This document shows positions 15,703-46,996 of a stretch of DNA of 54,905 bases, one piece after another (the stretch's first letter is position 1; each line of letters opens with the position of its first letter). Source of the stretch: a virus; IMG/VR virus record IMGVR_UViG_3300035138_000057, positions 1-54,905 of that record. The stretch is one strand, 5' to 3'. The notes under the pieces were generated by a model that searched no databases, was not told the origin of the DNA, and saw only the letters and a list, made by a program, of their open reading frames with translations. The position numbers were made by a program, and so were the translations under genes.

Positions 15703-16248
15703 GTGAACGAGATAAAGTTGAAGAGATTTTCCGCTGACTACTGCAACCCTCACAGTTTTCGCATGGTGGAAACCATCGACGGCCCGTGGTGTCACTACGC
15801 CGAGGTGAGTAGATTGCTCGACGTGCTCGTGGATCAGCTACGCCGGTCCGAGGCACAAAGGATTCAGATGGCGGTCAGGTGCACGCACCTCGATACCTGT
15901 CTGCGGGAAGGACATCACTTTGGCAGGTACGCGCACGAGGAAGCTAACTACGAGGAACCCGAGGTGTGCACGCGATGCGGGTACGTGGAGACCGAGGAGG
16001 ACCTGCGCCGGCAGGAGGGGGTTGATAGCCTCGAGCAGCAGGAGCACCTCGTAGCTACCTTTAACGGTAGTTACCCGGTTGGCACCGAGGTCTACTTTTG
16101 GAATTTGCCGCAGGAAGCTGCTCGTCCTCGCCGTTCGCGCACGAGGACCGTGGCACAGATCCTTTTCGGTCGGGCTGTCGTGTGGTTGGTAGGGCAACCC
16201 GGGTGCTGGGACCTGTCTCACGTTAGACCTGTCCCTCCTGGGTTGTGA
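15703..16248 (+). CDS. Zinc-ribbon protein with C-terminal SH3-like domain
   Basis: A 181-residue protein. Residues about 60-100 contain the module CLREGHHFGRYAHEE ... VCTRCGYVE, a C/GHH/CxxC zinc ribbon that also occurs at 36144 and 39441. Residues about 120-180 (NGSYPVGTEVYFWNL ... RTVAQILFGRAVVWLVGQPG) resemble the phage domain found in the preceding gene. Start GTG 15703 is preceded by TAGGAG. A nucleic-acid-binding role is likely for the zinc part; nothing more specific is visible. Confidence 0.6.
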   Translation: MNEIKLKRFSADYCNPHSFRMVETIDGPWCHYAEVSRLLDVLVDQLRRSEAQRIQMAVRCTHLDTCLREGHHFGRYAHEEANYEEPEVCTRCGYVETEEDLRRQEGVDSLEQQEHLVATFNGSYPVGTEVYFWNLPQEAARPRRSRTRTVAQILFGRAVVWLVGQPGCWDLSHVRPVPPGL

Positions 16249-19341: not shown

Positions 19342-19646
19342 TGACCACGAGTGAAGCTCTCGTCGTCTTCGGATTCGATCCGTTCGCGCGCCCTACCCTC
19401 GCTGCTGCGCGGGCTCGGTACCACGTGCTCGCGCAGCAGCACCACCCTGATCGGGGAGGACGGCAGGAGGACTTCGTCCGGGTGAGTCAGGCGTGGGGGG
19501 TGCTATCGCATGACCTCGTTCCAACGGATGCGTGTTCTAACTGCGGTGGGAGGGGTTTTACTCTTGTGGTCAACGGGTTCCATACCCTTAGGTCACGGTG
19601 TGCAGCGTGTCGTGGTACCGGGAGGACGGATCGGTATGAGCCCTGA
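19341..19646 (+). CDS. J-domain (DnaJ-like) protein with zinc finger
   Basis: A 101-residue protein containing a short J domain (FGFDPFARPTLAAARARYHV, then LAQQHHPDRGG with HPD at 35-37, then DFVRVSQAWGVL) and half of a DnaJ zinc finger: C65-SN-C68-GGRG and C87-AA-C90-RGTG. J domains activate Hsp70 ATPase; the zinc finger binds substrate. It could redirect host DnaK for replication or assembly. ATG 19341 overlaps the previous stop (TGATG). Confidence 0.85.
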   Translation: MTTSEALVVFGFDPFARPTLAAARARYHVLAQQHHPDRGGRQEDFVRVSQAWGVLSHDLVPTDACSNCGGRGFTLVVNGFHTLRSRCAACRGTGRTDRYEP

Positions 19647-34203: not shown

Positions 34204-34238
34204 TTGAAGTCAGCGAAAAAATCGCCGATACTAGGATC
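34204..34238 (+). promoter_or_regulatory. Leaderless promoter A
   Basis: TTGAAG (34204-34209), 17-bp spacer starting TCAGCGAAA, GATACT (34227-34232), then AGGATC and ATG at 34239. The expected transcription start, about seven bases after the -10, is the A of the ATG, so the message would have no leader. The block matches the one before 38969 almost base for base. Confidence 0.7.
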
Positions 34239-34670
34239 ATGAAGACAACGCGAGAGATGCAGATAGCCTACCGACACGGCAAAGCGCATGCTGGCCAAGA
34301 CATGATGGGTATCGCTTACGGTCCGGATGGCGAGCGTTGGGGTTGTTGGATGGATGACCCAGTGCTGCGTTTATTTTGGGGCGCCGGGCACGAAGAGGAG
34401 CAAATGCCTCGCTGGGTCGAGGCCGAGCGCTACGGGGATCTACCCGCGGAAGGTGTGTCACGTAACTATACAGATGACCGAGCTGAGGCAGGTGTGTCGG
34501 TGGCACGGTTGCTCGACGGTAGCGATGACTACAATTGGATGATGGGTGCGTGGGGTGAGGACAGTGCTTACGCCCGCCCAGTCCGCAAGGTGGCGGGGTG
34601 GTTGCACCACGATCGCGGCAGTGACGGCGAGCCGTTGTTGGTGGGCGCTGTGGAGGTGCACTGTGGCTAA
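34239..34670 (+). CDS. Hypothetical protein from leaderless promoter
   Basis: A 143-residue acidic, Trp-rich protein (MQIAYRHGKAHAGQDMMGI, WGCWMDDPVLRLFWGAGHEE). No family recognised. The ATG at 34239 has no Shine-Dalgarno site; it directly follows a promoter and is likely translated leaderless. The end overlaps the next gene by 8 bp. Confidence 0.6.
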   Translation: MKTTREMQIAYRHGKAHAGQDMMGIAYGPDGERWGCWMDDPVLRLFWGAGHEEEQMPRWVEAERYGDLPAEGVSRNYTDDRAEAGVSVARLLDGSDDYNWMMGAWGEDSAYARPVRKVAGWLHHDRGSDGEPLLVGAVEVHCG

Positions 34671-35752: not shown

Positions 35753-35968
35753 ATGATCACCGTACGCACAAATACCGACTCCTTGGGGATCACCTATTGC
35801 GTGGTTTTGCACGAGGGGTGGACCTTGCTGGTGTTGGCTGTTGTGCGTTCTGAGTCGCGAGATGTCTTACCGTGGCGTACCACACACTTCGAGCCTCATA
35901 AAAGTGACGCGCAGAAGGGGTTTTTGATTCATGCGCACGAGGCACTCGATGAACGCGGGCCCGGGTGA
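35753..35968 (+). CDS. Hypothetical protein
   Basis: A 71-residue protein with a beta-rich start (ITVRTNTDSLGITYCVVLHE and TLLVLAVVRSES). ATG 35753 with GAGGTAG upstream. The stop codon lies in the loop of a strong hairpin (GCCCGG/CCGGGC), suggesting transcription attenuation right at its end. Confidence 0.5.
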   Translation: MITVRTNTDSLGITYCVVLHEGWTLLVLAVVRSESRDVLPWRTTHFEPHKSDAQKGFLIHAHEALDERGPG

Positions 35969-36138
35969 GCCGGGCGCCCCGAGAGGGTACACCTACTAAA
36001 CACCGGCCATACGATGCCGGAGAACTTTAGCCAGCGTGGGTGCTGGAAGGAATGACCGAGGGGTGAAGCAGCTACGGGGTTCGCAGTTGTTTCACCACCT
36101 CCTCGAGCTGCCCGTTACGACGAGCGGTTGGAGGAGGT
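35957..36138 (+). ncRNA. Four-hairpin structured leader, riboswitch-like candidate
   Basis: Four stems follow in order: GCCCGG/CCGGGC (35959-35975); CCGGC/GCCGG (36003-36020); CCAGC/GCTGG (36031-36046); and a 12-bp stem with two G-U pairs, GGTGAAGCAGCT/AGTTGTTTCACC (36062-36096). Then ACCTCCTC (36097-36104) is perfectly complementary to the Shine-Dalgarno GAGGAGGT (36131-36138) of the 36144 gene. GCAGCT in the fourth stem can also pair with AGCTGC (36106-36111), so alternative folds exist. This has the parts of an aptamer with an expression platform. I match no known class. Confidence 0.5.
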
Positions 36139-36143
36139 AGACA

Positions 36144-37046
36144 ATGGCTCTCGATCGAATTCTCTGCAGTCAGTGTGAATCAGCACTTCCGCCTAATGAC
36201 ATCGTAGATTGTGCTTGTGGTCTACCGTTCTGTGTGGACTGTTATGACGGACATTTTCTTAATTGCCCATTGGCGCTCGAAGCTGCAGGGTTTCACTCGG
36301 ACCCAACTGAGGAGGTCGTGCACTCGTCCGAGGTCAAACTGGATCGTTATAACTTGATCGACGGAGCATTGACCGTCGACAACTCGAACGGAGTTTGGTA
36401 CCTGCGCGCGGCTGCAGACCAGCGCTTCGAGCTCCTCGAAAGGGAGTACGACGAAACCCTTCTGGCGCAGAAGCGAGCTGAACAGCTCGTTTTAGATCGT
36501 GATAAGCACTGCGAGCAGTACTACCTGGAACGCGGTGAAGCCCGAGCACTGGTGCTGCGACTCATCGCGGCGCAGGGACGCGTGGGGTGGGAGCAGGGAG
36601 AGACCGAGCAGGAGATCGTCGATCACGCGTTCAACCAGCTCCACAACTGGGGACTCGACCCGCACAACGACGTCGAGGCGTGCCGAGCGCTGCTCGAGCA
36701 GCATAACCCGCAGGCGGACCTCGAGCTGATCCGCACGCGCGAGGAGCTGCTCGAAGAAACTGCGGAGATCCTGCGTACGACTGAGCAGGAGCTGGGGGAG
36801 CTCAACGGGAAGCTGGACGATCTGCGTATGTGCATCGAGGGAGGGCACGACTACGGATCAGGACCGACGGCCGACGAGATCTGTTATCGCTGCGGCCACC
36901 GCGGACCAGGTGACCGCGAGCACGCGTTGCGGTTGGGGAACGAGCAGTTGAAAGCGATGTGCGAAACCTGGCAAAAGGCTTACAACGAGTTGTGGCAGAC
37001 GGCGCGCAGGCAGCTCGATGATTTCAAAAAGGAACTCGGGTTATAG
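36144..37046 (+). CDS. Zinc-finger, coiled-coil protein with C-GHD-CxxC module
   Basis: A 300-residue protein. Residues 8-41 (LCSQCESALPPNDIVDCACG, LPFCVDCYDGHFLNC) form a B-box/RING-like zinc cluster. Residues 95-220 are long charged helices (RFELLEREYDETLLAQKRAE; TREELLEETAEILRTTEQEL), a coiled coil. Residues about 230-255 hold MCIEGGHDYGSGP ... ICYRCGHRGPG, the same zinc module as at 15703 and 39441. ATG 36144 with GGAGGAGG that can be sequestered by the leader. It heads the lipoprotein/radical SAM operon. Confidence 0.65.
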   Translation: MALDRILCSQCESALPPNDIVDCACGLPFCVDCYDGHFLNCPLALEAAGFHSDPTEEVVHSSEVKLDRYNLIDGALTVDNSNGVWYLRAAADQRFELLEREYDETLLAQKRAEQLVLDRDKHCEQYYLERGEARALVLRLIAAQGRVGWEQGETEQEIVDHAFNQLHNWGLDPHNDVEACRALLEQHNPQADLELIRTREELLEETAEILRTTEQELGELNGKLDDLRMCIEGGHDYGSGPTADEICYRCGHRGPGDREHALRLGNEQLKAMCETWQKAYNELWQTARRQLDDFKKELGL

Positions 37047-37074: not shown

Positions 37075-37911
37075 ATGAGGCGGTTGAGCAAGTGGGGAGT
37101 GGTCAAGAGTTGGTTGCGGTACTGGTTGATCGACGACGTGCACCCGGGTTACGAACCGGGGCGCTTCGCCACACGGTGGACGGTGTTCGTACTGCTGGCG
37201 ATCGCCGTGATCGTACTGCTAGGGGTGGGAGCGATCGCGCTGACCGGGTGCGATCCCGAGTGCACGGTAGCGTACCCCAACGTAGGGAACTACAAAGGCC
37301 AACCGGGTTACTACACCTTCCGCGCGACGCACCGGTTGAGCAACGGGGCGTTGGTCGAGCTCCACCAGCCGTGGTTGATCGAAGAGCTCGACGACGCGGT
37401 TACCCGAGCGCTGGATCTGGCCAAGGCGGTCGGTCCGACGTTGACCGACGAGGAGCTGGACGACGAGCACGGGTTCTGCGTAGCGCACTTGGCGCGTAAC
37501 CCGCGCTGCGACGTTCGGGAGTGCTTGCGGATCCGGATTCTCCCGTTTCGATCGGTACACGTTAGCCGGCTCGATGGGGTGACGTTGCTGCTCAACGATT
37601 CGGTTGACCGAGCGCAGAACCACGGGTGCTGGGTACGAAAGCCTTGGCTCGACCCGAGCCTGCCGATCTACTGGCCGGCGGGCTGCCAGGAGGACAGCGT
37701 GTGCGTCGCGCCGGTGCCCAGCGGTGAGTATTTCACCGACGCCGACTGGCGACCTGTTGAAGGCGCGTACGGCCGGTGGTCCGCGCTGCAGCGAGCGGTG
37801 ATCGACTGGTACCTCGGGTGCTACAACTCGCCGTTGATCCCTGCGGTAGGGGGTTCCTCGCAGCGGAGGTGGCACGATGAGCTATCGCGAGAACCCGAAG
37901 ACGAAGGGTAG
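37075..37911 (+). CDS. Putative lipoprotein, cysteine-rich
   Basis: A 278-residue protein with a basic N-terminal 34 residues, a hydrophobic segment (VFVLLAIAVIVLLGVGAIAL, about 37-56) and LTGC, a perfect lipobox whose cysteine (about 59) would carry lipid. The next residue is Asp, the inner-membrane retention signal in E. coli. The exported part has many cysteines that could pair. AAGGAG precedes ATG 37075. It overlaps the radical SAM gene by 35 bp. Superinfection exclusion or a surface role is possible; unproven. Confidence 0.65.
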   Translation: MRRLSKWGVVKSWLRYWLIDDVHPGYEPGRFATRWTVFVLLAIAVIVLLGVGAIALTGCDPECTVAYPNVGNYKGQPGYYTFRATHRLSNGALVELHQPWLIEELDDAVTRALDLAKAVGPTLTDEELDDEHGFCVAHLARNPRCDVRECLRIRILPFRSVHVSRLDGVTLLLNDSVDRAQNHGCWVRKPWLDPSLPIYWPAGCQEDSVCVAPVPSGEYFTDADWRPVEGAYGRWSALQRAVIDWYLGCYNSPLIPAVGGSSQRRWHDELSREPEDEG

Positions 37912-38605
37912 CGGGATCGTCTGCTGTATCCCGCAGCGTGGGCGGTGTCCTATCGGCTGCGAGGACTGTTTTTTCCAGGGTGGTCGGTCGTACCTCGAGC
38001 CGCTGAACGAGCGTACGCCGAACCTTCCACCTCTTAAAGATACTGAGTATACCGTCGTGCGCGTGAACGACGGGAACGACTCGGACCACCAACGGGGGCT
38101 CGTGCTCGAGCGTACTCAGTTGTACCGCCATAAGTTCTATAACACATCAGTTTCTCGGGATCTCGAGGGCTTCGGTGCGCCGGTGGTGTTGACGGTCAAC
38201 CCAGGGAAGTTGACTGACGGGTGTGCGCACTTGCTCGAGGAGGTCCCGCCGAATCTCATGTTCGTGCGATTTCGCGCGAACACCTGGAACACCTCATTAC
38301 TGATCGACGTGATCAAGCATTACGAGCCACGTCGGGTTCCGGTGGTGCTCACCTTCATAGCGTATTATACTCATGAGATTCCTGAGCAACATCAACGATG
38401 GTATACCTTCCGTAAACGCGTGCAAAATCCCTCGTGGGTGATCACGCAGGACGGGTGGCACTTCGTTCGGGGTCCTTACCGCGATTATCCTTGGGTGCGC
38501 ACCTGCGGACTCAGCGCGGACGTGCACGAGTGTCGGTTCTGCGGTACCTGCCTGCGGGAGTACTTCGCGACGGCAGAGCGGTTGCGTACAGGAGCACCTC
38601 GGTGA
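37877..38605 (+). CDS. Radical SAM protein (second)
   Basis: A 242-residue protein with CX3CX2C at C24-C28-C31 (RGRCPIGCEDCFFQGG), the radical SAM cluster motif, and a C-terminal cysteine set (CGLSADVHECRFCGTCLRE) that could bind a second Fe-S cluster. The CPIGCEDCFFQ.GRSYLEP start (gap inserted) is found in a phage-borne radical SAM group. ATG 37877 lies within the lipoprotein gene, so the two are co-translated. Substrate unknown. Confidence 0.75.
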   Translation: MSYRENPKTKGSGIVCCIPQRGRCPIGCEDCFFQGGRSYLEPLNERTPNLPPLKDTEYTVVRVNDGNDSDHQRGLVLERTQLYRHKFYNTSVSRDLEGFGAPVVLTVNPGKLTDGCAHLLEEVPPNLMFVRFRANTWNTSLLIDVIKHYEPRRVPVVLTFIAYYTHEIPEQHQRWYTFRKRVQNPSWVITQDGWHFVRGPYRDYPWVRTCGLSADVHECRFCGTCLREYFATAERLRTGAPR

Positions 38606-38933: not shown

Positions 38934-38968
38934 TTGACGTCAGCGAAAGATTCGCTTACTCTAGGATC
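38934..38968 (+). promoter_or_regulatory. Leaderless promoter B
   Basis: TTGACG (38934-38939), 17-bp spacer starting TCAGCGAAA, TACTCT (38957-38962), then AGGATC and ATG at 38969. Geometry and flanking sequence are the same as in promoter A at 34204. It is followed by genes of a different composition. Confidence 0.7.
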
Positions 38969-39421
38969 ATGACGACGACACAAGACAAGAAGCAGCTCAC
39001 CTGGACAATCACCCCTACAGCACTGCGCAGCGGCACCTCCGGCGACGTGGCTGGTACCAAGCTTCCGGCCGCTAAGACCGGCCTCACTAAACAACAGGCG
39101 GCCGGTGTGGCCAAGAGGCTGCGGGGCTACGAGCTCGAGATCACTGACTCCGATGGGGGATGCTGGGCGATCAAGGGCGGTCGCCTCGTACGCGGTAAGT
39201 CCACCAAAATCGAGCTGTCGTCCGAGCAGCAGGCCAAACTGGACGACGCCCGCCTGCGGCGTGACCTCCGCACTGATCGCGAGCAAGTGGGTGCTGACCG
39301 CAGCCCCCTGGATGTGCTCGAGCTCGAGGACCTAGGCGACTACAGCCGGTCCTACGACGTGTACGGTAGCCCGGCGGACCCCGCCTCGGCGACCGAGGGT
39401 AATCGCAGATCTAAATTCTAA
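38969..39421 (+). CDS. Hypothetical protein with basic aromatic tail
   Basis: A 150-residue protein. Middle region TKQQAAGVAKRLRGYELEIT and GGCWAIKGGRLVRGKSTKIE is alpha/beta. It ends EGNRRSKF, resembling the basic, Phe- or Tyr-ended tails of the 12511, 12973 and 25573 proteins. ATG 38969 is leaderless (no binding site). No family recognised. Confidence 0.6.
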   Translation: MTTTQDKKQLTWTITPTALRSGTSGDVAGTKLPAAKTGLTKQQAAGVAKRLRGYELEITDSDGGCWAIKGGRLVRGKSTKIELSSEQQAKLDDARLRRDLRTDREQVGADRSPLDVLELEDLGDYSRSYDVYGSPADPASATEGNRRSKF

Positions 39422-39440: not shown

Positions 39441-40481
39441 ATGAGAGCCAGCAATCTAGTAGTAGTCGAGACGATCCCCGAGAGCCTCCGAGCCAGCCAC
39501 GCGGCCGCGGGCAACTCAGGCTCCTGGCCCCACAATGGCGCCGAGCGTATCGTGATGGACCGTGCCGACGCCGAGGAGCTCGTCGAGCACGATCCCGAGT
39601 GGTCGGAGATCCTCGAGGGTGAGGACCCCGCGGACTACGGCGATAACGACGAAACGATGAAAGAGATCACCGACGAGCAAATCGAGGCCCTGCGATCCGA
39701 GGCTGCCCAGGCAGGCGATACCCTGCAGGTGGCGCTGTGCGACGTCGCCCTCGCCAGCGGCCTGACCGACATGGCCGAGGTGGGTGAGCACCGCGCCGAG
39801 CTCGAGACCCTAGGCGTCGTACCCGAGCATGTGGATGCCGATGTGAAGGCACGCAAGCTCTGCGCTCAGGCTATCGCCGACGACGAGCCAACAACGACAC
39901 GTGATGAACAAATCGATAACATGGAGCTCATTATAGAACAGCAACTGCGCGTCATCGAGGGGCTCGAAAGAAAGACGAATCTTCTCCGGCGATGTATTGA
40001 GGAGGGTCATGATATGCACGATGGTCTCATTGCTCCCCGCATTTGCCACAGATGCGGCTATATACCCCGTGAGCTCTGCGCCCGAGCCGACGTGCGGGAC
40101 CAGACGACTCTCGAGGAGCAGTGGTGGGCCTGGCACGACGAGGACTACAGCAGGTGGGAGTATGAGACGGTGCAAGAGGCTGAGATCGCCTGCGCCGCAT
40201 GGGTGCGAGGTGAGTCGGATGTCGGGCCTGACCGCAATCGCGACGACGGCGACGACGAGCAGGAGACGATGTACCATCTAGACAACGGACCACCCCACCC
40301 ATTGGCGTATCTGATGAGACGCGCTGCACGGGATTGCCGCACGCAGGATCTCGAGGCTTTACGGATCTGGGCTACGGATCCTGCCCGAAAAAGCGGCGAC
40401 AGGTGGCTGTCACCGCTCCGATATAGGTATGGGACATCTGCAGGGCAGCCGCGTCTGGTGGTCACGGTAGCCAAGCAATAG
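39441..40481 (+). CDS. Hypothetical acidic protein with zinc ribbon
   Basis: A 346-residue acidic protein. Residues about 75-105 read EITDEQIEALRSEAAQAGDT, a pattern of phage and plasmid proteins of unknown role. Residues about 190-215 hold RCIEEGHDMHDGLIAPRICH and RCGYIP, the C-GHD-CxxC module shared with 15703 and 36144. The end has a helix (PLAYLMRRAARDCRTQDLEA). ATG 39441 with AGAGGAG. Codon use differs from the 12-38 kb genes. Confidence 0.6.
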   Translation: MRASNLVVVETIPESLRASHAAAGNSGSWPHNGAERIVMDRADAEELVEHDPEWSEILEGEDPADYGDNDETMKEITDEQIEALRSEAAQAGDTLQVALCDVALASGLTDMAEVGEHRAELETLGVVPEHVDADVKARKLCAQAIADDEPTTTRDEQIDNMELIIEQQLRVIEGLERKTNLLRRCIEEGHDMHDGLIAPRICHRCGYIPRELCARADVRDQTTLEEQWWAWHDEDYSRWEYETVQEAEIACAAWVRGESDVGPDRNRDDGDDEQETMYHLDNGPPHPLAYLMRRAARDCRTQDLEALRIWATDPARKSGDRWLSPLRYRYGTSAGQPRLVVTVAKQ

Positions 40482-40486
40482 CCCGT

Positions 40487-40528
40487 CTGCCACGCCCTCC
40501 CGCCGTCGGGGGCCGGAGGGTATGGCAG
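40487..40528 (+). terminator. GC-rich hairpin before DUF932 gene
   Basis: CTGCCA (40487-40492) pairs with TGGCAG (40523-40528), and CCCTCC (40495-40500) with GGAGGG (40515-40520). There is no T run. It may protect or attenuate the message between the two genes; AAAGGAG of the next gene lies outside the stem. Confidence 0.5.
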
Positions 40529-40554
40529 CGCTATCGCTCGAAAGGAGACCTATT

Positions 40555-41739
40555 ATGTCACACGAGATCGACGATACCAACGCCGTTTACACCGACCAGC
40601 AGGCCTGGCACCGCATCGGGACCGAGATCCCCCGATCCGAGACTTTCGCAGATGAGCTCCGCGCCGTCCGGGACGTCATGCCCGTCCTGTTCAGCGAGTA
40701 CGACGAGTACGACGCGTTCATCGTCACGAGTGACCCGACGTTCGTCGGGGGGAAGACCTACACCGTGAGGAACGGCGGAAAGCCGAAGCCCTGCCGCATC
40801 GCCCCGGTCCCCGACGTCAAGGCGATCGTTCGCCGGCAGGACGGCCGCGTCATGCGCCGCACGGTGGGCGCCGAGTCGTTCTACCTGCGCCAACCAGCTG
40901 ACCTCTGGCAGCGCGCCGAGACCTTCGCCCGCAACGCGCCTAACGCGCACCTGTCCTTCGCGGCTTACCTCTACCAAGGGTCGCGGCTCTTCGTCTGCCT
41001 CGACCTCGGGTCGGTCGAGATCAACGGGGAGGAACACCAGCGCTACCTGACCCTGGTGACCGGGTTCGACGGCTCCAAGGCCGAGGAGGTGATCCTCAGC
41101 GTGCAACGCGCGGTGTGCGCCAACACGGTGGCCGTGGCTCGCTACGACGCGCAGTCCGATGACCCAGCCAAGGCTTACTTCAAGACCAAGCACACCAAGT
41201 ACGCCGACCGCCGGATCCGTAAAGCTGACCTCGAGATCGCCAAGGTGCTCGAGCAGTTCGGCTTCATCCAGCGCCAGCTCGAGGCGCTGCCACGGATTAC
41301 GGTCGACCCTCGCATCGCTAGGGACCTCATCAGCGAGTGCCTCGAGCGCACTGGCCGGTTCGACACCGCGTCGGACTCGCCCAAGGCCCGAGCCAAGTCG
41401 GTCATCGACGAGATCCTCGACCTCTACGAGGACCCCCGAGCGGACCACGCGAAGTGGCACGGGACCGCGAATGGTGTGTACCAGGCTGTGACCGCGTACT
41501 GGAGTCATCACAGCACGGTGCGCGGTGCTCGCAGCGCGAAGACCGGTACGACTAGGTCACCAGCAGCAAGGACTCGTCTGACCGAGTACGCCTACGACAC
41601 CGGAGCGAAATCGGTGATGGCCGCGACCGAGGTCATGGCGGAGCTCGTCGAGCACCGCGGTATCACCCTCGAGGAGGCTGGTGTGCACGTCGGGGAGCAG
41701 CTCGACGGTTCGGGCGCCGTCGCTGCTAAGGTGATCTAA
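40555..41739 (+). CDS. DUF932 (TIGR03299-like) phage/plasmid protein
   Basis: A 394-residue protein that fits the DUF932 family of phage and plasmid proteins: QQAWHRIGTEIP at the start, VRRQDGRVMRRTVGAESFYL, LVTGFDGSKAEEVILSV, and QRAVCANTVAVA, the hallmark C-A-N-T motif. Its function is not known; these often sit in mobile DNA near conjugation or replication genes. ATG 40555 with AAAGGAG. I rejected an in-frame ATG at 40522, 11 codons upstream, because it has no binding site. Confidence 0.85.
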   Translation: MSHEIDDTNAVYTDQQAWHRIGTEIPRSETFADELRAVRDVMPVLFSEYDEYDAFIVTSDPTFVGGKTYTVRNGGKPKPCRIAPVPDVKAIVRRQDGRVMRRTVGAESFYLRQPADLWQRAETFARNAPNAHLSFAAYLYQGSRLFVCLDLGSVEINGEEHQRYLTLVTGFDGSKAEEVILSVQRAVCANTVAVARYDAQSDDPAKAYFKTKHTKYADRRIRKADLEIAKVLEQFGFIQRQLEALPRITVDPRIARDLISECLERTGRFDTASDSPKARAKSVIDEILDLYEDPRADHAKWHGTANGVYQAVTAYWSHHSTVRGARSAKTGTTRSPAARTRLTEYAYDTGAKSVMAATEVMAELVEHRGITLEEAGVHVGEQLDGSGAVAAKVI

Positions 41740-41745
41740 TTCCAA

Positions 41746-41794
41746 GGCCCTCCGGGGCCCACCGGTGCTCCTCGGTCGCGGGTGGTGCCGGTGG
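41746..41794 (+). terminator. Tandem hairpins before metallopeptidase gene
   Basis: GGCCC-TCCG-GGGCC (41746-41759) is followed by CCACCGG/CCGGTGG (41759-41794). They share boundary bases, so only one may form at a time. No T run. They lie between the DUF932 gene and the metallopeptidase gene. Confidence 0.45.
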
Positions 41795-41825
41795 TTCCCG
41801 GATGGACCGGGGACGGGAGGTAGAG

Positions 41826-45127: not shown

Positions 45128-45385
45128 CTACGGCGGAGCGTCAACCGGAGGTTCGTAGCGGGCCCCTGTCGCTTCGATCACAGCGCGGAGCATGCCCTTG
45201 ATGTCTTCCTGGCTGTTCTCGAGAACGGTCACCCGCGCATCGAGCTCATCGATCTCCTTCCGTGCCGACCACGGATCCGCAGCGTTGACTCTATCGCAAA
45301 GGGTAAAGCCGGCGATCGCTCCGCCGAGCAGCGACGCGGCGATCCCTATCGAGGTTACGTACCATTTTGTCCTGCGTGCTGCCAT
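45128..45385 (-). CDS. Membrane protein with coiled coil
   Basis: An 85-residue protein: basic N-terminus (MAARRTKWYV), membrane segment (TSIGIAASLLGGAIAGFTLC, about 11-30), then a helix ARKEIDELDARVTVLENSQE that predicts a coiled coil. ATG 45385 with AGGAG; the longer ORF from 45472 is not supported. It could be a second spanin-like or holin-associated protein. It ends just before the holin-like gene. Confidence 0.55.
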   Translation of the reverse strand: MAARRTKWYVTSIGIAASLLGGAIAGFTLCDRVNAADPWSARKEIDELDARVTVLENSQEDIKGMLRAVIEATGARYEPPVDAPP

Positions 45386-45393
45386 TGCTGCTC

Positions 45394-45705
45394 CTACGGA
45401 ACGGTTACCTCGAATTGTCCAGGCGGATCGTAGGTCACGGTGAAGACAGTCTTGCCTGTGTCTGTGTTGCATGTCGCACTGACCACGGTCCGATCGATGC
45501 AGGGATCCATCATGGTTGCGCAGGTTCCCGGCGTTTTTCCATATTCAGTGTCGAAGTCACTGCAGGTAACGTTCTCGATTTTGGCCCAGAAGTCGATGAC
45601 CTGTTGGTTGCTGTTGTTCACAGTCTTGATGAATGTCTTCGGGACATTAGCCGCAATACTGCCAAGCAACAAACCAGAGATCAAAGCAATGATTTTCTCT
45701 GTCAT
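45394..45705 (-). CDS. Small exported cysteine-rich protein
   Basis: A 103-residue protein with a signal-like start (TEKIIALISGLLLGSIAANV) then a body with five cysteines (VTCSDFD, GTCATMMDPC, SATC) and a beta-rich end (GKTVFTVTYDPPGQFEVTV). Cysteines could form disulfides outside the cytoplasm. ATG 45705 with AAGGAGGG. Unknown function. Confidence 0.55.
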   Translation of the reverse strand: MTEKIIALISGLLLGSIAANVPKTFIKTVNNSNQQVIDFWAKIENVTCSDFDTEYGKTPGTCATMMDPCIDRTVVSATCNTDTGKTVFTVTYDPPGQFEVTVP

Positions 45706-45718
45706 GGTAATCCCTCCT

Positions 45719-46996
45719 TTATGGTGACCAGTAGCAAATAACTACTGTCGCTTCCCCAGCTGAAATCGTACTCCAGTCATTATCGACTGTGATAGTAACG
45801 GTTACGCTCTTCGCGGCGTCATGCCAAGCTGTACCTGACGGAACACCCAAATCGACGCCACCTGCATTAGTCGTGTAAACATCAGGAGTGCCTGTGCTAT
45901 ATCGGTCCGGATCAGTACCATCGCCTATTTGCACAGTCGCGGTCGAGTTAGCGCCACCTGCAAACCCTGTCAAGTCGTGCAAGATAGCACGCTGCGCAAC
46001 CGCACCACTCGGAATACCGTTATTCAGAACGAGCGTCCCGACAACACCGCCTCCGTCCACGAAGTCCGCGTAGGATATGGTTTGGTTGATGCAACCGAAA
46101 CCCCCACCGTCGCCGCCAAGAGCGAATCGATTACCGCTAACCAACAGGTTGGCCGGCCCATCCTCTTCGTCATAGATGGCGAGCTCTCCGTCGGTTGTGT
46201 TGCCATCCAGTTGAATGGCTTGGGATCTATCCCCAACGAAGAAGTCCTGATCCCCGTCATTCATAAACCAAATCTCGCCGGTTGTTGTTCTTATCGATAA
46301 CCCAGTGTATGCGGGCTCGTACTCCATGATGTAGTCAAGGCCGCTACCAAGATATACTTCCTCGTTATCCTTAATCCACAAGTGCCCTTCTATGACAACC
46401 CGCCCATCAAAACGGGTTTCCGCGTCCACCTCCATTTTGACGCCTGTGATGTGTACATCATTCGCACCCACGCTGAATCCGGAGGCCGCAGGCGGCCCAA
46501 ACGTCATTTTGGCGTCGGGGTTCGTCACTGACGATGCCCGTAGGACTATCACATTAGCACCAGCGTCCTTGTAGAATTCCAGCGGATCGCACGGCGATCC
46601 CTCGCAGTCTTTCTGGGTAAGCCGTAGTCCATCAGGAGTGCCGCCCGTATCGTGCTCGATGCAAAAGTCATCATCGTCGCCCAGGCACAACGGGATATCG
46701 TCGGGCACCTTGATGCCCGTGGATGTGATGTCTACTACGTCCGCACCACCTGCCACGCAGCGCCACGTGTCTGCTGCCGCGTGCCAGCAGTACGTGTTGG
46801 GATCAGCCCCGTAGTTTCCGTAGAACTTGTTACCAGCGAGATCGGCGTCAGCGACGAACGTTCCGTCGAAGTCCGGCACGGGTAGCGTATCCCCGATCGT
46901 ACCCTGTTGAGCTCGAGCTCCAGCTTCTCTTGACCACAAACCCACAACCGTGGCGATAACGATCGCCGTTACCCAAGTGATCAGCCAACGATTCAT
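45719..46996 (-). CDS. Beta-rich protein with signal peptide, tail-fibre-like body
   Basis: A 425-residue protein starting with a signal or anchor (RWLITWVTAIVIATVVGLW) and an AQQG cleavage-like site. The body is a repetitive beta structure as in tail fibres (VYLGSGLDYIMEYEPAYTGL; IYDEEDGPANLLVSGNRFAL; VVGTLVLNNGIPSG). Fibre proteins rarely have signal peptides; it may be exported to the envelope. ATG 46996 overlaps the previous stop and has GGGAG. Confidence 0.6.
   Translation of the reverse strand: MNRWLITWVTAIVIATVVGLWSREAGARAQQGTIGDTLPVPDFDGTFVADADLAGNKFYGNYGADPNTYCWHAAADTWRCVAGGADVVDITSTGIKVPDDIPLCLGDDDDFCIEHDTGGTPDGLRLTQKDCEGSPCDPLEFYKDAGANVIVLRASSVTNPDAKMTFGPPAASGFSVGANDVHITGVKMEVDAETRFDGRVVIEGHLWIKDNEEVYLGSGLDYIMEYEPAYTGLSIRTTTGEIWFMNDGDQDFFVGDRSQAIQLDGNTTDGELAIYDEEDGPANLLVSGNRFALGGDGGGFGCINQTISYADFVDGGGVVGTLVLNNGIPSGAVAQRAILHDLTGFAGGANSTATVQIGDGTDPDRYSTGTPDVYTTNAGGVDLGVPSGTAWHDAAKSVTVTITVDNDWSTISAGEATVVICYWSP

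Follow-up and report, generated by a model that had tools for sequence, protein, structure and literature searches.

Comparative sequence analysis and structure modelling identify what we conclude is a real, conserved and undescribed cis-regulatory RNA with a bistable platform that masks a Shine-Dalgarno (SD) sequence. The element (35957-36144) is flanked by an ORF of 71 aa (35753-35968) and the gene for a Cys-rich protein of 300 aa (36144-37046) in the virus record IMGVR_UViG_3300035138_000057, analysed over its full 54,905 bases (the window, hereafter W). We consider it probable that the element is a cis-acting translational gate within a polycistronic phage mRNA, with two alternative states at the SD. 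The mechanism at the SD itself is well supported by the modelled folds, a sensor role for the domain upstream of it is one that we infer, and riboswitch is as yet an unproven label for a group of two members. The features of the region are as follows.

35753-35968, plus strand: upstream small ORF of 71 aa (ORF list), its stop codon inside the H1 loop
35956-36058, plus strand: conserved upstream domain, a putative sensor, comprising H1, H1b, H2 and H3 with possible closing pairs 35956-35958/36056-36058 (alignment A2, consensus fold)
35959-35975, plus strand: H1, GCCCGG-GUGAG-CCGGGC, identical in both phages (A2, consensus fold)
35978-35987, plus strand: mini-stem H1b, CCC/GGG, 3 bp, loop CGAG-A, identical in both phages (A2, consensus fold)
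36003-36020, plus strand: H2, one two-sided compensation, C-G to U-A (consensus fold, covariation)
36031-36046, plus strand: H3, one two-sided compensation, A-U to G-C (consensus fold, covariation)
36057-36065, plus strand: invariant CGAGGGGUG, an SD mimic containing GAGG (36058-36061) (A2, competing-fold computation)
36062-36096, plus strand: H4, 12 bp and three more past a mismatch, two two-sided and three one-sided compensations (fold, covariation)
36063-36140, plus strand: open frame GTG..TAG spanning H4 and H5, a possible coupled leader ORF
36097-36138, plus strand: H5, the sequestor, two two-sided compensations close to the loop (fold, accessibility, covariation)
36130-36138, plus strand: SD GGAGGAGGT of the 36144 gene (sequence, accessibility)
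36144-37046, plus strand: gene for a Cys-rich (zinc-type) protein of 300 aa, putative first controlled gene

The element and its homologue in a second phage

An earlier note on this DNA had described four consecutive stems, the last of 12 bp, followed by a strand perfectly complementary to the SD. All four are present as H1, H2, H3 and H4, and the anti-SD strand ACCTCCTC (36097-36104) is perfectly complementary to the SD strand GAGGAGGT (36131-36138). A pattern scan of viral contigs (ACCTCCTC N18-45 GAGGAGGT N3-8 ATG) returned 69 stretches, among which a single true homologue was found, L120 (IMGVR_UViG_3300042731_009922, 50,410 bases), with 72 % identity to W over 221 nt (E about 2e-26). Homology begins within the upstream ORF, 15 codons from its end, and stops exactly with the last base of the SD; the C-terminal part of this ORF is also homologous at the protein level (tblastn 39.5 % over 43 aa, E 2.6e-5). 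In L120 the gene that follows the RNA encodes a DUF4031 protein (E 8.8e-19), unlike the zinc protein in W, and the element is therefore not tied to the zinc/lipoprotein/radical SAM operon to which the earlier note had assigned it. Tail-region genes of W (45147-46692) share 70-75 % DNA identity with the phage of L120 (locus L160), and a promoter-like segment is also common to the two, which are thus mosaic relatives.

No further homologue was found in 50,697 phages, in plasmids, in genome contigs (exact core pattern, 0 matches) or, using a covariance model, in ~50 whole viral records. The covariance model, run over the collected loci and the 50 whole records, matched W and L120 only, while a pattern restricted to H4 gave 27 matches, about chance level and none a homologue. 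The model (A2 structure) and CGGGTGAGCCGGGCNCCCCGAGAGGG provide search queries for the element. Strong and perfect SD-sequestering hairpins before an ATG (z -6.4 to -7.8) were seen in six unrelated viral contigs (L137, L107, L086, L096, L119 and L108), which form a starting set for a survey of phage SD gates.

The earlier note had proposed that compensatory changes in a relative would support the structure, and L120 provides them. The consensus fold, derived from the alignment (A2) of W and L120 and therefore from the same pair of sequences in which covariation was scored, contains 53 pairs, none of which is broken in either phage, with differences at 16 stem positions. Six two-sided compensations (one each in H2 and H3, two each in H4 and H5) and four one-sided ones were counted. 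When the 16 stem substitutions were placed at random, all pairs stayed intact in 0 of 200,000 simulations. The shuffle control is weak with n = 2 sequences. Changes fell in 16 of 106 paired columns vs 35 of 79 unpaired columns, all 16 gap columns were unpaired, and sliding the 3′ partners by 1-3 columns left 0-1 double changes, so that nearly all of the covariation was lost. H1 and H1b do not vary, and covariation is therefore uninformative for these two. Two G-U pairs in H5 occur in W and L120 alike, and folding is more favourable on the plus strand (-48.1 vs -37.0); both observations point to an RNA of the coding strand.

Folding at the Shine-Dalgarno sequence

The proposal that the SD is masked by structure was borne out by the computed folds. 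The start of the 36144 gene (-85 to +3, 88 bases ending at the ATG) has a z of -7.16, the extreme of 76 gene starts in W (next -2.64), and its mean SD accessibility is 0.01, or 0.02-0.04 in a longer fold. The sequestor has a computed stability of -28.4 kcal/mol. H4 and H5 together (36060-36139) reach z -6.2 (H4 alone -4.8, H5 alone -5.3) and a z of -3.4 was obtained for the full stretch of 228 nt, with a folding energy of -97.8 kcal/mol. The energy of H1-H3 taken together does not exceed that of shuffles (z -0.8); support for the upstream stems appears to be comparative rather than energetic, with one compensation each in H2 and H3 between two sequences. A few equally stable 86-base stretches were found in a scan of both strands of W, and none of the 24 others listed has a comparable z. 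Other very stable intergenic hairpins lie at 41729-41814, 40468-40553 and 19401-19486 (-48 to -51 kcal/mol, z about -4 to -4.5); two of these directly precede gene starts, where the SD is mostly open.

The two mutually exclusive folds that govern the SD, computed in both phages, are H5 and an extended H4. Immediately before and into H4, CGAGGGGTGAAGC is kept in W and L120, and in the computed folds of both phages the GAGG within it (36058-36061) can take up CCUC (36098-36101) from the anti-SD strand, so that H4 becomes longer and the 3′ half of the SD is released. The earlier note had also argued for a competing fold, through the pair GCAGCT (36068)/AGCTGC (36106). A conserved competitor does exist in GAGG/CCUC, but the pair named in the note is present in W and broken in L120 (GCTGGT vs AGCTGC). 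In model energies the competing fold lies above the best fold by 6.2 kcal/mol in W and 4.2 kcal/mol in L120. Folding of truncated transcripts gave the competing fold a probability mostly >0.9 before the SD is transcribed, and of 0.005-0.017 in W and 0.2-0.4 in L120 once the SD has been made.

These computations suggest how a gate of this kind would work. In the closed state the base of H5 would hold the SD of the following gene paired to the anti-SD strand, as covariation in H5 also indicates, and in the open or primed state the SD mimic 5′ of H4 would capture CCUC instead. The competitor precedes the SD in the growing transcript, so the open arrangement would form first during transcription, and the truncated folds suggest that completion of the SD then lets H5 close. 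The ~100-nt upstream domain (H1, H1b, H2 and H3) has the position of a riboswitch sensor, or of an operator to which an RNA-binding protein attaches, and it probably shifts the balance of 4-6 kcal/mol between the two states.

Genomic setting

The nearest recognisable promoter-like motif, TTGAAG-N17-GATACT-AGGATCATG at 34204, is ~1.7 kb upstream of the element, which therefore probably belongs to the interior of a long transcript and not to its 5′ end; 'intercistronic element' is a better description than the 'leader' of the earlier note. The 34204 motif is kept in the relative (83 % conserved with a contig end of L120's phage), and a similar promoter-like motif occurs again in W at 38934. The two (34204-34241 and 38934-38971) are near-identical, TTGA(A/C)G-N17-(GATACT/TACTCT)-AGGATCATG, with a start codon soon after the -10-like element, and possibly represent a class of phage promoters that yields short or leaderless mRNAs. 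Using the sigma-70 consensus only, from which phage-specific promoters may differ, no promoter was found inside the H4/H5 arms or near the element. No T run of a terminator follows H4 or H5, and no tRNA or tmRNA was found in the window.

The protein encoded at 36144-37046 has a weak PHROG match to its N-terminus as its sole match, with no relatives in viral contigs, phages or genome contigs. A zinc-ribbon-like segment (C-x3-GH...C-x-RCG) is common to this protein and to those encoded at 15703-16248 and 39441-40481, possibly an in-genome paralogous module within otherwise different proteins. The protein at 37877-38605 belongs to a CxxxCxxC family, radical SAM-like by motif, of which 40 viral loci (L007-L046) have a member; four additional Cys residues are invariant in the six sequences aligned, and there is no match in Pfam, PHROG, NCBIfam or PDB; none of the 40 loci has the leader RNA or the zinc gene. 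The portal and methyltransferase genes of W have no relatives in the viral contigs. The nearest relatives of its DNA polymerase (38 %) are from a Manatee Spring phage, Stenotrophomonas phage AXL_3 and Pseudoxanthomonas phage PW916, and the covariance model had no match in the parts searched of these three records.

Alternative explanations and comparison with known systems

The earlier statement that no protein-coding frame explains the stretch was too strong. A frame that starts at GTG 36063 crosses both hairpins uninterrupted and stops at TAG 36140, 3 bases before the ATG; its codon score lies in a coding-like range, reached by 74 % of coding samples and ~6 % of non-coding ones. L120 has the same GTG, keeps the frame with one 3-nt indel and again has a stop right after the SD, while indels 5′ of the GTG are mostly not multiples of 3. 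Such a pattern would fit a ribosome-operated switch, in which a ribosome on this leader ORF (or one starting at GTG 36036) melts H5 and the 36144 gene is started by coupling or by erm-like stalling. However, neither GTG 36063 nor GTG 36036 has an SD 4-10 nt before it in the sequence, and the W-L120 comparison yielded no conserved leader peptide or stalling motif. Changed codons in the GTG 36063 frame are 12 non-synonymous vs 1 synonymous (the stop), changes at the three codon positions number 8, 7 and 5 with no third-position excess, and the substitutions are better explained by stem pairing. The RNA fold rather than a peptide is, judged from sequence comparison, the conserved feature of the H4/H5 region; coupling through a passing ribosome is possible, and we regard a ribosome-operated switch as decidedly improbable.

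A static timing gate of the kind described for T4 genes e, soc, 49 and I-TevI would silence the gene on read-through mRNA by the hairpin, with expression relying on a different promoter or on cleavage of the RNA (e.g. by RNase III) to take away the 5′ arm, and would involve no sensing. The great stability of the sequestor, the intercistronic position ~1.7 kb past the nearest promoter-like motif and the well documented T4 precedent (PMC3014915) speak for it. We nevertheless hold it to be unlikely, as no promoter-like site was seen between the arms or nearby (sigma-70 consensus only) and as it leaves unexplained the conserved 100 nt 5′ of H4, the invariant 20-base core and the GAGG competitor. 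A third alternative is that the structure has no part in regulating the next gene and adjoins the SD only by position, serving the upstream ORF as a folded 3′ end or a stabilising element, or acting at the level of DNA. In its favour, the two phages share a homologous upstream ORF but not the gene downstream, and the stop codon of that ORF lies in H1. Homology and pairing end exactly at the last SD base, however, the SD forms half of H5, and the conserved G-U pairs speak against a DNA-level palindrome, making this a very remote prospect.

The element is a compact RNA that no Rfam family matches, backed by compensatory evidence and common to two distinct phages before unrelated genes, a distribution that suggests a modular exchange of translation switches among phages. 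It yields a specific prediction for a short sequence, namely that GAGG and the SD compete for one and the same CCUC. Should a small molecule or a phage protein prove to bind the upstream domain, this domain would represent a new sensor class. We raise only tentatively the broader idea of a new riboswitch or protein-sensing RNA class, an exchangeable cassette of environmental phages in which an invariant sensor and SD-mimic platform is set before whichever gene needs gating.

No Rfam 15 family reached its gathering threshold in W, and relaxed thresholds gave only far sub-threshold matches in W and L120. Among the candidates rejected, Ms_IGR-8 is a sub-threshold match covering essentially H4 only, a single hairpin. 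The ROSE RNA thermometer (RF00435), which resembles the element in having a hairpin that masks the SD, scored 19.1 bits in L120 vs 45 needed and had no match in W; the GC-rich stem is too stable and there is no heat-shock gene.

Riboswitches are described as rare in phages, and the known ones, e.g. the glutamine riboswitches of marine phages, fall in established classes (PMC9004378). Like translational riboswitches, the element combines a conserved upstream domain with two helices 3′ of it that exclude each other, the SD being hidden in one of them, but it matches no Rfam 15 family, lies between two genes and precedes unrelated downstream genes. Tandem hairpins over an open frame, with the SD within the second, recall erm-type stalling leaders, although here the frame has neither an SD of its own nor a conserved peptide. 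As in the autogenous operators of T4 gp43 and gp32 (PMC3014915), an RNA upstream of the ribosome-binding site also overlaps it; those operators travel with the gene of the binding protein, whereas the gene downstream of the element differs between the two phages. The T4 initiation hairpins of e, soc, 49 and I-TevI likewise act between genes and, on mRNA that reads through from upstream, lock the SD of a phage gene into a stable helix, but carry a late promoter within the 5′ arm, of which none was seen here (sigma-70 consensus only). To such SD-masking structures, which in T4 are not described with an upstream domain (PMC3014915), the element adds both a conserved upstream domain and a competitor strand.
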